This document shows, in pieces, positions 1 through 64,000 of a DNA stretch of 64,000 nucleotides. Below the pieces are notes generated by a model. That model saw nothing but the letters and a program-made list of their open reading frames with translations, was not told where the DNA came from and ran no database searches. The position numbers were made by a program, and so were the translations under genes. How positions within the stretch are numbered: the stretch's first letter is position 1; every line of letters starts with the position of its first letter. Location: NCBI GenBank assembly GCA_017450125.1, contig JAFSWZ010000029.1:1-64000 (forward strand), given 5' to 3'. Source of the stretch: Synergistaceae bacterium. GTDB lineage: Bacteria; Synergistota; Synergistia; Synergistales; Aminobacteriaceae.

Positions 1-327
1 CCGTATCTCAGTCCCAGTGTGGCCGTACACCCTCTCAGGCCGGCTACCCGTCGTTACCTTGGTGGTCCGTTACACCGCCAACTAGTTGATAGGATACGAG
101 CACCTCCACCAGTGCATTACTGCTTTAACCCGTAGGCCTATGGGGTATTAGCGTCCGTTTCCAGACGTTGTCCCCCGCTGATGGACAGCTTCTCATATAA
201 TACTCACCCGTCCGCCGCTCCGTAATTCCATTCCTGTCTCCAGTTAAGAACTCCGTCGCACAACTTGCATGTGTTACGCACGCCGCCAGCGTTTATCCTG
301 AGCCAGGATCAAACTCTCAGTTGAAAG
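1..327 (-). rRNA. rrs: 16S ribosomal RNA, 5' part only
   Basis: The sequence is the reverse complement of the first third of a bacterial 16S gene. The complement of the universal forward-primer site (AGAGTTTGATCCTGGCTCAG) lies near 297-317, and the complement of the conserved block around E. coli position 315-335 lies at the very start of the window. The gene runs leftwards out of the window, so only about 327 bases are present. The exact 5' end is estimated from the distance to the primer site and may be off by several bases. Confidence 0.97.
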
Positions 328-35483: not shown

Positions 35484-35512
35484 TTGACAGTGATGGATAA
35501 TCTGGGTACAAT
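35484..35512 (+). promoter_or_regulatory. Promoter-like TTGACA-N17-TACAAT overlapping the GT8 start
   Basis: TTGACA (35484-35489) and TACAAT (35507-35512) are 17 bases apart and the heptamer repeat begins 2 bases later. The same arrangement precedes both GT2 genes. It contains the ATG at 35493, so if it fires the transcript would start inside the repeat and lack that start codon. Activity is not proven. Confidence 0.45.
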
Positions 35513-36539
35513 GCGCCCAACGCCCAACGCCCAACGCCCAACGCCTGATTCTGCCCAAAATCAGGACGAGGTAATTCACGTAGTATTAGCGGTGTATGAC
35601 CCGTCGGGAACTTACTCACAGCACGCCGGAGTCGTAATGACCTCCATCTTCGAGAACACACAGAGCAAGGTTACAGTTCACCTTCTTCATGATAACACAC
35701 TCACGGAAGAAAACAGGCAGAAGTTCATACGCACTGCAGAGAAGTACTCGCAGGGGCTAGAGTTTCACGACGTTACGGAATACTTCTCGCAGGTTTCTGA
35801 TGACGTGAAACGCTCAACAAAACAATTCACAGTAGGTACTCTGTTCAGGCTTCTTATCCCACACACCATAAAACTCGACAAAGTCATATACCTGGATACA
35901 GACCTTGTTGTGAACATGGACATAAGGGAGCTGTGGAATGTAGACATCGGCCAGAATTGCATAGCCGGATATCATGACAAGCTGTTATACGAACGCCTGC
36001 AAGACCGCGTAATAGGATGGCTCAACGGCGGGGACAGCAGAAACGAGATTAATGCAGGAGTCCTGCCCATGAATCTCGCCATGATTCGCAAGAAAGGGGA
36101 TATGTTCCGTGATGCCATGAAATGGTTTTCTCGCAGGTATCACCTTGCAACTCGTGCAGACCAGAGCTTCATCTACGTCTACTTCGGCAACTCAATAACT
36201 ATGCTTGATGAAAGAATGAATCTCAGAAATCCTCCTGCATCAAGAAGCGTCGACGACTGCATAATACATACAGCCGGAGGTGTGAAGACGTGGGAAATGT
36301 CAGGATTTCCTGTTAATAAACTATACTGGCATCACTACCTGAGAAGCGCATGGGGAGAAAACAGCAGCTGCGAAGAACTGCTTGAAGCAATATCGTCCCG
36401 CATCAAACAGCCGCAGCCCAAGCCCTGCCTGATAAAACGCATCGCAAGAAGGCTGTTCAACACAACACCTGCTGTCATAGTGCGTATCCTCCTTAAGGAC
36501 ATATACTACCGCCTCAAGCACGCTCTCTCGCGCCACTGA
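35493..36539 (+). CDS. GT8-family glycosyltransferase with 5' heptamer repeat
   Basis: A 348-residue cytoplasmic GT-A enzyme. After about 24 repeat-encoded and linker residues the domain starts at IHVVLAVYD; the metal-binding DxD is in YLDTDLVVNMD near residue 134. This is the family of LPS galactosyl/glucosyltransferases, moving a hexose from a UDP-sugar. ATG 35493 is chosen over GTG 35490 and TTG 35484 for spacing from AAGGAGAGG. Codons 8-17 are made of (CGCCCAA)4; the frame is open. With three or five units the frame meets a stop soon after the array. The 3' end overlaps folP on the other strand by 26 bases. Confidence 0.9.
   Translation: MDNLGTMRPTPNAQRPTPDSAQNQDEVIHVVLAVYDPSGTYSQHAGVVMTSIFENTQSKVTVHLLHDNTLTEENRQKFIRTAEKYSQGLEFHDVTEYFSQVSDDVKRSTKQFTVGTLFRLLIPHTIKLDKVIYLDTDLVVNMDIRELWNVDIGQNCIAGYHDKLLYERLQDRVIGWLNGGDSRNEINAGVLPMNLAMIRKKGDMFRDAMKWFSRRYHLATRADQSFIYVYFGNSITMLDERMNLRNPPASRSVDDCIIHTAGGVKTWEMSGFPVNKLYWHHYLRSAWGENSSCEELLEAISSRIKQPQPKPCLIKRIARRLFNTTPAVIVRILLKDIYYRLKHALSRH
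35514..35541. repeat. (CGCCCAA)4 heptanucleotide repeat in GT8
   Basis: Four perfect 7-base units followed by a partial CGCC. Seven is not a multiple of three, so copy-number change shifts the frame of the glycosyltransferase. With a fifth unit the TGA directly after the array comes into frame. Confidence 0.95.
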
Positions 36540-57568: not shown

Positions 57569-58699
57569 TTACTGTGAACGCTTGAGGACTGCAAGAGCTG
57601 CGAGCAGAAGAACGCAGAAGCCTGCGTTGCACCCGCCGCCTCCGCCGCCGCCGGAAGCTCCTTCACCGTTCGTATCGTCTGTCGGCGTGTCGTCTGTTGG
57701 CGTGTCGTCCGTCGGCGTGTCGTCTGTTGGCGTGTCGTCCGTCGGCGTGTCATCCGTCGGGGTGTCGTCTGTCGGGGTGTCATCCGTCGGGGTGTCATCT
57801 GTCGGAGCATCGGGAGCAGGGTCGGAAGGGCTGGCTTCAGTGTTGTCTGCTACTTCGCCCATCGCGCCGGTTCTTCTGCCGTATATTGCCCCTGAATAGT
57901 CGGTATTGCCTCCGAGAGTTACGCGAGAATAGTTGCCCGTTACCTTATCCAGCAAATTGTTGTCATATAAGTTGCCGATAATTCCTCCCTCAGCCGCAAC
58001 ATTGCTGGAATTGCTGCCCGCTCTGCTGTTTATTGAAGCCCCAACTCTCGTGGATGCCTTTGACCCGGCCTTGCAGTCGATTACGCTTGCCGGACCTCTT
58101 GTCAGGTCTCCAACAATCCCGCCTGCATATGCTGACGCTATCGTGCCGCTTGTACTGGCTATAACAGTACCGTCAAAGCAGCAGTTCTCGATACTTCCTT
58201 CCCAGAGTATTGCCGCTATTCCTCCCGAACGTACTACGGTGTGGATAGTCGACAGACCGAGCGATACGCTGCCGGACACAGACAGATTCTTTACGGTTCC
58301 GTCGTTTATATACCCGAACAGCCCGGCATACGTCTGGCTTCCTGAGGGCGACGAAATGTTCATCGTTATAGTGTGTCCGTTCCCGTCAAAGTTCCCGGTG
58401 AAAAGATGACTTCTCGCGCCTGACGTGCCGATCTTGCCTATGGGATCCCAATCTTCATAATCCGACAGGTCAATGTCTGACATCAGCTTGTAATACGCTT
58501 CAGACTGAAGAGCATCAGCACGCCCGGAATTGACTTCATCCCTCATTCTTACCAGAGACGACACAGAACTTATTTCCCACGCGTGATCCTCATCGTAGCC
58601 TTCCGTTTCGTACCCTGTCGCACCGTACTCGAGAGCAAACGCACTTGAGCACACCACAGCCAGCGCAAGAGCCAGCACAACAACAAAAACTTTCTTCAT
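57569..58699 (-). CDS. Secreted GLUG-repeat protein with DDTPT stalk and Synerg-CTERM tail
   Basis: A 376-residue exported protein. ATG at 58697-58699 is chosen for AGGAGG just upstream and because a signal peptide (KKVFVVVLALALAVV, cut near AFA-L) then starts the protein. Residues about 75-290 form a beta-solenoid with GLUG-like repeats (FDGNGHTI, YAGLFGYINDGTVKNLS, YAGGIVGDL). A stalk of eight DDTPT repeats follows, then Gly-rich GGGGCNAGF, a hydrophobic stretch and a basic end, the Synerg-CTERM signal. It is probably displayed on the surface on a flexible acidic stalk. The gene is alone, with a leader of about 160 bases. Confidence 0.88.
   Translation of the reverse strand: MKKVFVVVLALALAVVCSSAFALEYGATGYETEGYDEDHAWEISSVSSLVRMRDEVNSGRADALQSEAYYKLMSDIDLSDYEDWDPIGKIGTSGARSHLFTGNFDGNGHTITMNISSPSGSQTYAGLFGYINDGTVKNLSVSGSVSLGLSTIHTVVRSGGIAAILWEGSIENCCFDGTVIASTSGTIASAYAGGIVGDLTRGPASVIDCKAGSKASTRVGASINSRAGSNSSNVAAEGGIIGNLYDNNLLDKVTGNYSRVTLGGNTDYSGAIYGRRTGAMGEVADNTEASPSDPAPDAPTDDTPTDDTPTDDTPTDDTPTDDTPTDDTPTDDTPTDDTPTDDTNGEGASGGGGGGGCNAGFCVLLLAALAVLKRSQ
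57681..57800. repeat. Eight 15-base tandem repeats coding DDTPT
   Basis: Eight units of the type GTCGGCGTGTCGTCT (plus strand), with small third-position changes. Fifteen is a multiple of three, so copy changes would lengthen or shorten the stalk without breaking the frame. Confidence 0.95.
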
Positions 58700-58862
58700 G
58701 AAAATACCTCCTGAGAATATGAAGTTAGAGGTTACGAGGACAAAATCATAAATACACATGACAGCCCCCGCCTGCCTTATGGTATAATGAACAGCACAAG
58801 ACAAGGAAGACAAGAGGACACCGCCTCTCGCCATGTGTTAGAAAAGATCTTTGAGCGGATTA

Positions 58863-61310: not shown

Positions 61311-61339
61311 TTGACACAACAATAATGAACGCGTATACT
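61311..61339 (+). promoter_or_regulatory. Promoter-like TTGACA-N17-TATACT overlapping the GT2 start
   Basis: TTGACA (61311-61316) and TATACT (61334-61339) are exactly 17 bases apart. The pentamer repeat begins 3 bases later. The ATG at 61325 lies between the two boxes, so a transcript from here would start in the repeat and miss the ATG. GAGG at 61307-61310 is the only ribosome-site candidate for that ATG and is 14 bases away. Confidence 0.5.
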
Positions 61340-62344
61340 GCTCCAGACCAGACCAGACCAGACCATTCTTGCGCTCTAATATCGGTTATCGTTCCTGTCT
61401 ATAACGTAGAAGCATACCTTTCACGCTGCCTTGACAGCATACTAGCCCAGACCTACACGAACCTCGAGATAATCCTCATTGACGACGGCTCTACGGACAA
61501 CAGCGGCAGAATCTGCGACGAATACGCAGGCAAGGACTCCCGCATACGTGTTATCCATCAGGAGAATCAGGGACTGGCAGAAGTCCGCAACATCGGAGTA
61601 CGCGAGGCTAAAGGCGAGTACATTCAGTTTGTGGATTCCGATGACTGGATTGACGCAGAGACAATAGAGACATGCCACAGGATGTCGAAGGAATACGGCG
61701 CGGATATAGTGAGGTTCGGGGGAGTAAGGGAGTTCGAGGACGGCCACCAGAAGCACAATCTCGGCAGAGAACATGAGCCGTTAGTCATGCCCGTCAGAGA
61801 AGCCCTGAGCCTGTACTTTTTCGACGACTATGTTGGCACAAGCTCGTGCACAAAACTCTTCAAGGCCGGGCTTTTCGAGGGTGTAACTTTTCCCAAAGGC
61901 AGAGTCTCAGAGGACACCTACGCACTCTGCAAGGTCATCGCGCGGGCGGAGAAGTTTCTGGTCATAAGCAATGAGTTCTACCACTACTTCACGCGCAACG
62001 GTTCGCTGAGCCGTTCTCCTTTTTCGGCTCACAGTTATGATGTACAGTATGTTTCTCTCCATGCCTATGAGTTCATCACGTCCGCCTGCAAGCTCACTCC
62101 GTACGAACACATGAACCTGCTCGTAGGGCTGTGTGTCCATCTGCTGCACGTGGCAAACAAAATGGCTCGGGCGGGCAAGGTCGACAAAGAATACACCTCC
62201 GAGCTCAGGGGGATGATAAAGCCGCTTGGTGTTCTCAGGTGCAGGCACATCAACACAACAAAGAAGGCACAGCTCGTAATCTTCAAGCTGAGTCCCAAGC
62301 TGTACGCTTTCATCTACAAGCACCTGAAGCCTGTCAGTGAGTAA
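61325..62344 (+). CDS. GT2-family glycosyltransferase with 5' pentamer repeat
   Basis: A 339-residue GT-A enzyme. The domain begins at ISVIVPVYNVEAYLSRCLDSIL; DDGSTDNSG, NQGLAEVRNIG and the DxD in FVDSDDW (near 105) are standard. C-terminal helices (about 230-339) are of the type in capsule and LPS sugar transferases. The first 18 residues are encoded mostly by (CCAGA)4. The frame is open as read; three or five units bring a stop within about 15 codons. It lies between serC (divergent) and the AlaX gene. Confidence 0.9.
   Translation: MNAYTAPDQTRPDHSCALISVIVPVYNVEAYLSRCLDSILAQTYTNLEIILIDDGSTDNSGRICDEYAGKDSRIRVIHQENQGLAEVRNIGVREAKGEYIQFVDSDDWIDAETIETCHRMSKEYGADIVRFGGVREFEDGHQKHNLGREHEPLVMPVREALSLYFFDDYVGTSSCTKLFKAGLFEGVTFPKGRVSEDTYALCKVIARAEKFLVISNEFYHYFTRNGSLSRSPFSAHSYDVQYVSLHAYEFITSACKLTPYEHMNLLVGLCVHLLHVANKMARAGKVDKEYTSELRGMIKPLGVLRCRHINTTKKAQLVIFKLSPKLYAFIYKHLKPVSE
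61343..61362. repeat. (CCAGA)4 pentanucleotide repeat in the first GT2 gene
   Basis: Four perfect units plus a partial CCA, within codons 7-13. With five units the frame reads into TAA after about seven more codons; with three it also meets an early stop. Confidence 0.95.
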
Positions 62345-62391
62345 CAGTGTATAATTGCGGGGAAAAATTTTTCACGCACGAGGTTTCACTA

Positions 62392-63594
62392 ATGACCGCC
62401 AAACTGTATTACGAAGACTTATACGCCCGCGAGTTCGACGCTGAGGTAGTCTCCCAGTCCGAGCACGAGGGCAGGTATCACGTCATCCTGAATCAGACGC
62501 TGTTCTACCCTTCAGGCGGAGGACAGCCCTGCGACTTGGGGACGATTGACGGAATAGATGTGCTAGATGTTCACGAAGAAGGACAGGAGATAGTTCACGT
62601 TCTGGCTTCACGGCTTGAAGGCTCACACGTTCACGGAGTGCTGAACTGGGAGCGGAGGTTTGAGCTCATGCAGCAGCACTTAGGCGAGCATCTCTTGGCC
62701 GGTTACTTGTGGACGCTTCACCAAATTCACACGGACAGGATGAGGATTGAGGGCGACAACGTCTCAATAGACACGGACAAACCCATAGCCCTTGAAGCAA
62801 TCCTTGAAGCCGAAGCCGAAGCCAACCGCGCAGTGTGGAGGGATATTCCCGTCGAAGTGATTTACCCGTCGATGGACGAGATACAGGAACGCGCGCGCAA
62901 ACTTCCTCCCGAGAATGCGGAACTCCCCATCAGAATCGTCAAGGTTGAGGGTGCGGACTACGTGCCTTGCTGCGGTCTGCACGTGAGCTCAACGGGCCAA
63001 GTGGGGCTCGTGAAGGTTACGACTGTCGAGAACCACAAGGGCGGCTCGAGAATATACCTTCGGTGCGGAAGTGCGGCGTACAGGTGGCTTGATGATGTTT
63101 ACCGCGAACTTCGGAAGGCAGAGGCAGAGCTGGTCTGCGGGTACGACGGAATAAACGAGAAGATAGCCGTTCTCAAAGGACAGATACGCGACCTCAAAGC
63201 ACAGAATGAATCTACAGTAGAACGTTTCCTGAGGCCTGTTGCTGAAAGTTTGGCGGCTGAAGGTGAGGCGTTCGGCGGGTACAAGCTCGTGAGGCACGTG
63301 ATGAAGAACTCGGGGCAGGACGACGTGAAGCATCTGTTCAGGCTTCTGACGGCCAAGAAGGACGTTGTTGCACTGCTGGCGGGCGTGAACGCTGAAGGAG
63401 TATTCCTGACGTTCGGGACGCACAAGGAGAACAAGGGCGTTGATGTTCGGGGAGCATTCAGGAAGGCGATGGAGCTTCTGGACGGTCGCGGCGGAGGAAG
63501 CCCCGTGTGTGCTCAGGGCTGGGGGAAGAAGAGTGAGGCTCTGGAGGAAGCACTTGATGCCGCAGTCTCAGAGCTGAAAAATAGCGTGAAATGA
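62392..63594 (+). CDS. AlaX-type alanyl-tRNA editing protein with DHHA1 domain
   Basis: A 400-residue free-standing editing protein that would remove Ser or Gly from tRNA-Ala. YPSGGGQPCDLG and the zinc-binding pairs HLGEH (near 99) and C-x3-H in CCGLHVSS are present, followed by a coiled coil (about 250-300) and a C-terminal DHHA1-like domain ending GGGSPVCAQGWGK. ATG 62392 with GAGG at 62380. TATAAT at about 62349 may be its promoter. Its stop is 10 bases before the next glycosyltransferase start. Confidence 0.9.
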   Translation: MTAKLYYEDLYAREFDAEVVSQSEHEGRYHVILNQTLFYPSGGGQPCDLGTIDGIDVLDVHEEGQEIVHVLASRLEGSHVHGVLNWERRFELMQQHLGEHLLAGYLWTLHQIHTDRMRIEGDNVSIDTDKPIALEAILEAEAEANRAVWRDIPVEVIYPSMDEIQERARKLPPENAELPIRIVKVEGADYVPCCGLHVSSTGQVGLVKVTTVENHKGGSRIYLRCGSAAYRWLDDVYRELRKAEAELVCGYDGINEKIAVLKGQIRDLKAQNESTVERFLRPVAESLAAEGEAFGGYKLVRHVMKNSGQDDVKHLFRLLTAKKDVVALLAGVNAEGVFLTFGTHKENKGVDVRGAFRKAMELLDGRGGGSPVCAQGWGKKSEALEEALDAAVSELKNSVK

Positions 63595-63596
63595 GG

Positions 63597-63627
63597 TTGA
63601 CAAAATGAATAATAACACAATTATAAT
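63597..63627 (+). promoter_or_regulatory. Promoter-like TTGACA-N19-TATAAT overlapping the second GT2 start
   Basis: TTGACA (63597-63602) and TATAAT (63622-63627) are 19 bases apart, a little long, and the heptamer repeat follows at once. The 10-mer GAGGTTGACA is shared with the two other repeat-bearing glycosyltransferase genes. Here GAGG (63593-63596) is also well placed as ribosome site for ATG 63605. Confidence 0.45.
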
Positions 63628-64000
63628 AGAGCACAGAGCACAGAGCACAGAGCACAGAGCCAGCCTATTGTCTCGTTTTGTATCCCTGTCTACAACAACG
63701 CAGAGGCCGCGCGTAAACTAGTTGAGGGGCTTCTTGTTTCGGAGGATTCACGGTTCGAGGTAGTGGCCGTCGATGACGCTTCAACCGACAACACACAGGA
63801 ACTCCTCTCACAGATTCACGACCCGCGCTTCAGGTACGTACGCAATGATAAAAATCTGGGGGCTCAGAAGAACTGGCTGAACTCACTGGAACTTGGCCGC
63901 GGCGAATGGCTTTACCTCGTGATGGGGCGCGATAAATTGCTGGGTGGTAATATTACAAGGCTTATAGCTCTTCTCGACTGTTCCCGCGAGCACAACATTG
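63605..64000 (+). CDS. GT2-family glycosyltransferase, out of frame as read and cut by window end
   Basis: From ATG 63605 translation runs through the (AGAGCAC)4 array and stops at TAG 63719-63721 (38 residues). A second frame starting at CAG 63661 encodes a clear GT2 N-terminus: PIVSFCIPVYNNAEAA, VDDASTDNTQELL, NLGAQKNWLNSL. No start codon exists in that frame between the TAA at 63613 and the domain. With five or two repeat units the ATG would be joined in frame. So the gene looks switched off in this sequence. The rest lies beyond the window. Confidence 0.85.
63628..63655. repeat. (AGAGCAC)4 heptanucleotide repeat in the second GT2 gene
   Basis: Four perfect units plus a partial AGAGC. The distance from the ATG to the glycosyltransferase frame is 56 bases (remainder 2); adding one unit or removing two makes it divisible by three. 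Confidence 0.95.

Follow-up and report, generated by a model that had tools for sequence, protein, structure and literature searches.

Phase variation by short repeats has mostly been studied in pathogens with small genomes. In the SSR contingency loci for glycans, such as lic of H. influenzae and the phasomes of Neisseria and Campylobacter, a frame-shifting repeat lies just after the start codon (PMC2651432, PMC5953494, PMC6321876). In S. gallolyticus pil1, the number of repeats sets the length of a leader peptide and thereby termination (PMC3894217). At hmwA of H. influenzae, the first repeat contributes bases to the −10 box of promoter P2, and less transcript is made as the repeats increase in number (PMC8262952). 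Our literature searches found no report of phase variation in Synergistaceae, which is not proof of its absence.

The locus described here comes from a rumen bacterium of this family. The window, that is, the whole stretch of DNA analyzed, comprises 64,000 nucleotides (C29:1-64000) of a contig that runs on to 78799, in a 97%-complete genome assembly of 2.16 Mb; features given below are on the forward strand unless marked otherwise. The locus is a known type of switch, and the novelty lies in the leader common to the set of loci to which it belongs. As in the SSR contingency loci, a frame-shifting repeat lies just after the start codon, and LicD and acyltransferase genes are among the targets of the sister loci. 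The repeat units, however, are mostly of 7 and 5 bp and of many sequences, rather than one favored tetranucleotide or a poly-G tract, a nested promoter is part of the leader, and the host is a gut Synergistaceae genus. A likeness to S. gallolyticus pil1/pil3 is seen at four sister loci (L065, L148:17061, L172, and L201) but not at the focal locus: each array lies in a short leader ORF that, in one of its frames, crosses an intrinsic terminator. They differ from pil1/pil3 in their varied 7- or 5-bp units, in serving glycan genes rather than pili, in the nested promoter, and in a leader ORF that also ends on or near the start codon of the gene. With H. influenzae hmw1A/hmw2A, the genus shares a 7-bp array that abuts a −10 box, so that a transcript from it would carry the array, but the H. 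influenzae arrays lie in the 5′ UTR, have tens of units, and have no effect on the frame, whereas here an ORF contains the array and the promoter spans the start codon. What is met here is a large and uniform set of such loci in gut commensals, in which several modes of control (in-gene, coupled leader ORF, and attenuator) use one leader.

The focal array and its reading frame

The focal GT2 gene directly follows an alanyl-tRNA-editing-like gene (tRNA_SAD and DHHA1 domains; 62347..63594), with which it is probably transcribed. Its predicted Shine-Dalgarno (SD) sequence, GAGG (63593..63596), overlaps the stop codon of the DHHA1 gene and precedes the predicted ATG start codon (63605..63607) by 8 bases. 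A −35-like TTGACA (63597..63602) is fused to the SD, and 19 bp further on a −10-like TATAAT (63622..63627) abuts the array, a perfect (AGAGCAC)4.7 of 33 bases (four full units plus AGAGC; 63628..63660), for which the chance expectation in 64 kb is about 1e-11 (64000 × 4^-26). A perfect array with a unit length that is not a multiple of three is therefore placed between a start codon and a conserved domain. The frame of ATG 63605 stops at 63719 after 38 codons, and the GT2 frame, which is open from 63616 to 64000 in the window and on to a stop at contig position 64776 (L003:3617-4777), is out of frame with it. After the array, the three frames remain open for 371, 19, and 17 codons, and one frame alone yields an intact gene; by arithmetic, the gain of one unit or the loss of two brings ATG 63605 and the domain into frame. 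The earlier note had described this array, the ATG with GAGG 8 bases upstream of it, its mismatch with the domain, and the same restoring changes in unit number, and all of this stands.

The same note took ATG 63605 for the only well-placed start, and we found no alternative ATG, GTG, or TTG in the GT2 frame upstream of the domain. This frame is closed up to TAATAA (63610-63615), and its first such codon is GTG 63763. It could be proposed that the GT2 protein is made regardless, from an internal or non-standard start, with the array as a mere spacer, and both GTG 63763 and, where the domain begins, an in-frame ATT exist. However, GTG 63763 falls past the first strand of the GT2 fold and would remove it, the ATT has no SD before it, and ATT start codons are very rare. 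This proposal, which would also leave unexplained why the units in 40 loci avoid stops and multiples of three, is hardly credible, and none of the internal starts tried for the GT2 frame was usable.

We suggest instead that translation would begin at ATG 63605 and then cross the heptanucleotide array, in which gain or loss of 7-bp units by slipped-strand replication would shift the frame, so that one unit number in three would give the GT2 protein and the sequenced number the 38-codon peptide. We infer that the unit number changes within the population; the switching rate may be low because the focal array is short (4.7 units).

The gene beyond the window and its orthologues

The alternative to a live switch is a pseudogene, in which the array has become fixed at a unit number that breaks the frame and the gene has fallen out of use. 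The earlier note, which had argued from the intact domain against an old pseudogene, had left the remainder of the gene outside the window as the place where decay might be seen. Followed past the window, the frame has 386 open codons up to its stop at C29:64774-64776. The predicted protein matches PF00535 (GT2) with 64.3 bits against a curated cut-off of 23.3, and its PDB profile matches are GT2 enzymes, chondroitin and heparosan synthases among them; a plasmid collection searched with it gave no match over 80% of the query, the hits being distant GT2 domains only. The enzyme presumably decorates a surface glycan.

Searches at the protein and genome level recovered orthologues from eight congeners in the relatives sample, at 44-54% identity, and from one more named record, L050; the named relatives that the protein search brought up are Synergistaceae assembled from the gut of goats and deer, plus one "uncultured Fretibacterium sp." The focal protein aligns with the orthologues end to end. 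On contigs of sufficient length, SerC, the DHHA1 gene, the focal GT2, and the DtxR gene follow one another in this order, and most of the orthologues downstream of the DHHA1 gene also have the DtxR gene next. In three congeners, an array of another 7-mer (AGGAGTC) is found at the same place, and its state is ON in L142, where the gene is in frame (383 aa from the ATG), and OFF in L149 and L050, a comparison that is between species, with one genome per species. No array was detected at the orthologues L048, L051, L052, and L053, and in the array-less orthologues inspected (L019, L022, and L024) both TTGACA and TATAAT are absent. With the gene and its place conserved and both array states present in sister species, the locus looks like a live switch.

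That the gene is dead is nevertheless favored by several facts: its assembled state is out of frame, the orthologue of G030 (L053/L024) is disrupted by a frameshift away from any array and by a TAG near its end, and the GT2 gene evolves faster than its neighbors. The G030 orthologue, as its sequence suggests, is probably a real pseudogene in that species. Decay of the focal gene, however, would leave stops, and the 371 codons after its array are open and align along their whole length with the orthologues; moreover, arrayed orthologues occur in both states, and sister loci of the same genome are in frame. We therefore regard loss of the gene as highly improbable. The anatomy of the locus, its frame, the intact ORF, the syntenic conservation, the ON and OFF orthologues, and the many sister loci point to a contingency (phase-variable) gene, and very probably to one sequenced in the OFF state; as the earlier note had held, an OFF gene and not an old pseudogene is the most likely reading of the sequence. 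Genes that look "truncated" in such assemblies may in many cases likewise be off rather than dead.

The divergence of the focal gene deserves mention in its own right. Between species, the identity of orthologues to the focal GT2 is 42-53%, compared with 64-96% for the neighboring genes, which reflects either fast evolution or relaxed constraint.

Sister arrays in the genome and the genus

Two further arrays lie at gene starts in the window, both in frame (ON). In the first GT2 gene (61325..62344), TTGACA and TATACT, 17 bp apart, are followed by (CCAGA)4.6 (61311..61365, array at 61343). In the GT8 gene (35493..36539), TTGACA and TACAAT, also 17 bp apart, are followed by (CGCCCAA)4.6 (35484..35545, array at 35514), and an extended −10 element, TGCTATAAT (P1; 35448..35456), stands upstream.

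The survey of arrays was made on sampled stretches: 535 kb of the same genome (including 79 kb of this contig), 400 kb of G030, about 400 kb of other congeners, and 396 kb from other families of the order. Within the 535 kb of its own genome, nearly all perfect arrays of at least 20 bp with units of 4, 5, or 7 bp are at gene starts, and a whole-genome pattern search yielded additional ones; an array at 2471, the sole one with a 9-bp unit, is not at such a gene start. The sampled congeners have the same pattern. In the 396 kb from other families, a small sample, no array of at least 20 bp was found. The possibility that the focal array is a single fluke was ruled out by the samples from its own genome and genus; that the locus has many sisters of common design had escaped the earlier note. 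The targets identified with Pfam are GT2 (many times), GT8, GT61, Acyl_transf_3, MBOAT, FkbM methyltransferase, LicD, Bac_transf, radical SAM, nitroreductase, phosphoribosyltransferase, and beta-helix or GLUG surface proteins, in proportions biased towards GT2 because several stretches were picked around GT2 hits. These are surface-glycan and surface-protein genes, which are typical of contingency loci.

Among the 27 distinct units across the genus, all are 4, 5, or 7 bp long, never a multiple of three, and none contains a stop in any coding phase, while eight contain a stop on the other strand. As 6.6% of shuffled sets also lack stops, the stop-codon test alone is modest, with a strand contrast of 8:0. 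Being free of stops and of lengths that are not multiples of three, the arrays look selected for read-through and frame shift.

Repeats of other kinds were also seen. A predicted surface protein in the window (57569-58834, reverse strand) has a (PTDDT)n tail from a 15-bp tandem array of nine copies, which, being in frame, is a length-variable and not an on/off repeat. Contigs C1, C10, C13, and C19 end within (TTGC)n arrays (L057:5998-6024, L066:1-29, L075:1-26, and L180), two of which have the nested leader in front; the assembly fragments at these switches.

A common leader with a nested promoter

The leaders of most arrays have a common order: SD, TTGACA, a start codon usually 0-8 bp on, a TATAAT-like box 16-18 bp (about 17) from TTGACA, and the array within a few base pairs. 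A combined −35/−10 score of at least 10/12 is reached by about 24 of 29 array leaders versus 0.2% of random positions; at other gene starts it is reached by 7 of 532, a few of which may themselves be array genes. The exact sequence TTGACA-15..19-TATAAT occurs 18 times in the whole genome, and 11 of these copies stand before an array or a remnant with at least two units; among the other seven, several precede tRNA genes. The −10-like box is read in varied codon phases, as Tyr-Asn in some loci and as Ile-Ile or Thr-Met in others, which implies a constraint on the DNA and not on the peptide. By its sequence, the leader holds a near-consensus sigma-70 promoter that overlaps the start codon and points into the array.

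An extended −10 (TGnTATAAT, at least 7/8) is present about 25-40 bp upstream of 21 of 37 leaders, compared with 76 of 532 other genes, and the mRNA that carries the SD and the start codon therefore seems to have its own promoter. This upstream element is absent from the focal gene. The spacing of the focal nested promoter, 19 bp, is also outside the 16-18 bp of a functional sigma-70 promoter, and those of its orthologues are 12, 13, and 21 bp, although TTGACA and TATAAT are both kept. A working nested promoter is thus not needed for the persistence of the array in this family.

The leader seems, from sequence comparison, to move or to be copied between genes. That of a radical SAM gene (L070) and that of a GT2 gene (L084) are 98% identical, and those of a nitroreductase gene (L099) and a GT61 gene (L200) are 95% identical and carry different repeat units. 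Near-identical leaders of 41 bp before non-homologous genes were seen at L070:8267-8302, L084:10005-10032, L099, L200, L143, L154, and L195, sometimes with different units.

Two layouts of the switch

Based on the position of the array, the loci can be divided into two classes, in which switches with the common leader would act in the gene directly or by way of a leader ORF that is coupled either to the gene or to a terminator. In class I, the array is inside the gene, as in the focal gene, those at 61343 and 35514, L063, L089, L094, and others. In class II, all frames close shortly past the array, and the gene has a start of its own. For 14 of 16 class II loci, one frame reaches a stop that overlaps the start of the gene (eight as exact ATGA or GTGA), against an expectation from other genes of 35%, itself inflated by operons; some of the 16 are mutual orthologues, and the starts and the list were hand-picked from SD and frame, so that there is some selection in this count. 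At four class II loci with long gaps, before methyltransferase and sugar-transferase genes, a strong intrinsic terminator (hairpins of −12 to −24 kcal/mol with a T-run) lies inside the overlapping frame (L065:224-420, L148:17061-17210, L172:1500-1680, and L201:1500-1655). These four loci are candidate phase-variable attenuators. No leader ORF and terminator arrangement of the pil1 type is present at the focal locus.

Possible roles of the nested promoter

It is somewhat unlikely, but possible, that the nested TTGACA-TATAAT is a productive promoter with the array in the 5′ UTR, where the number of units would tune the transcript level as at hmwA. Its geometry equals that of H. influenzae hmwA P2, and at leader-ORF loci that lack a terminator, the gene further downstream is equipped with a separate SD and start. 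However, at in-gene or terminator loci, the transcript would begin at the array without a start codon or would be terminated, which means that it is useful otherwise or that the element acts at the DNA level. The separate extended −10 upstream of many leaders and the aberrant spacings in the focal family also argue against a productive promoter.

Sigma-dependent pausing needs just a −10-like element, and a promoter-like pause site might hold RNA polymerase so that the first ribosome loads before the array or terminator is reached. The spacings place the −10-like element some 50-60 nt past the predicted upstream start site, which is consistent with such a role, but most leaders retain a −35 at 16-18 bp, for which pausing would have no need, and we consider this role decidedly doubtful.

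An unlikely but tentatively proposed reading is that the leader is a genus-wide switch cassette, found on non-homologous genes and with different units, in which the translation start is overlaid by a near-consensus promoter that would make little or no useful mRNA; the promoter's bubble, opening the first repeats, would keep the array hypermutable and thus act as a local mutator. We would guess that the instability is raised by melting of the DNA at the first repeats. At the focal locus, where the spacing is poor, such an effect is probably not strong. Whether a strong promoter aimed at a repeat array alters its mutation rate is a question that this leader poses. By eye, nested-promoter quality shows no trend with array length, which weakens the mutator idea; some perfect promoters stand before arrays of just 2 units, and the 7.3 units of L050 go with a spacing of 13 bp.
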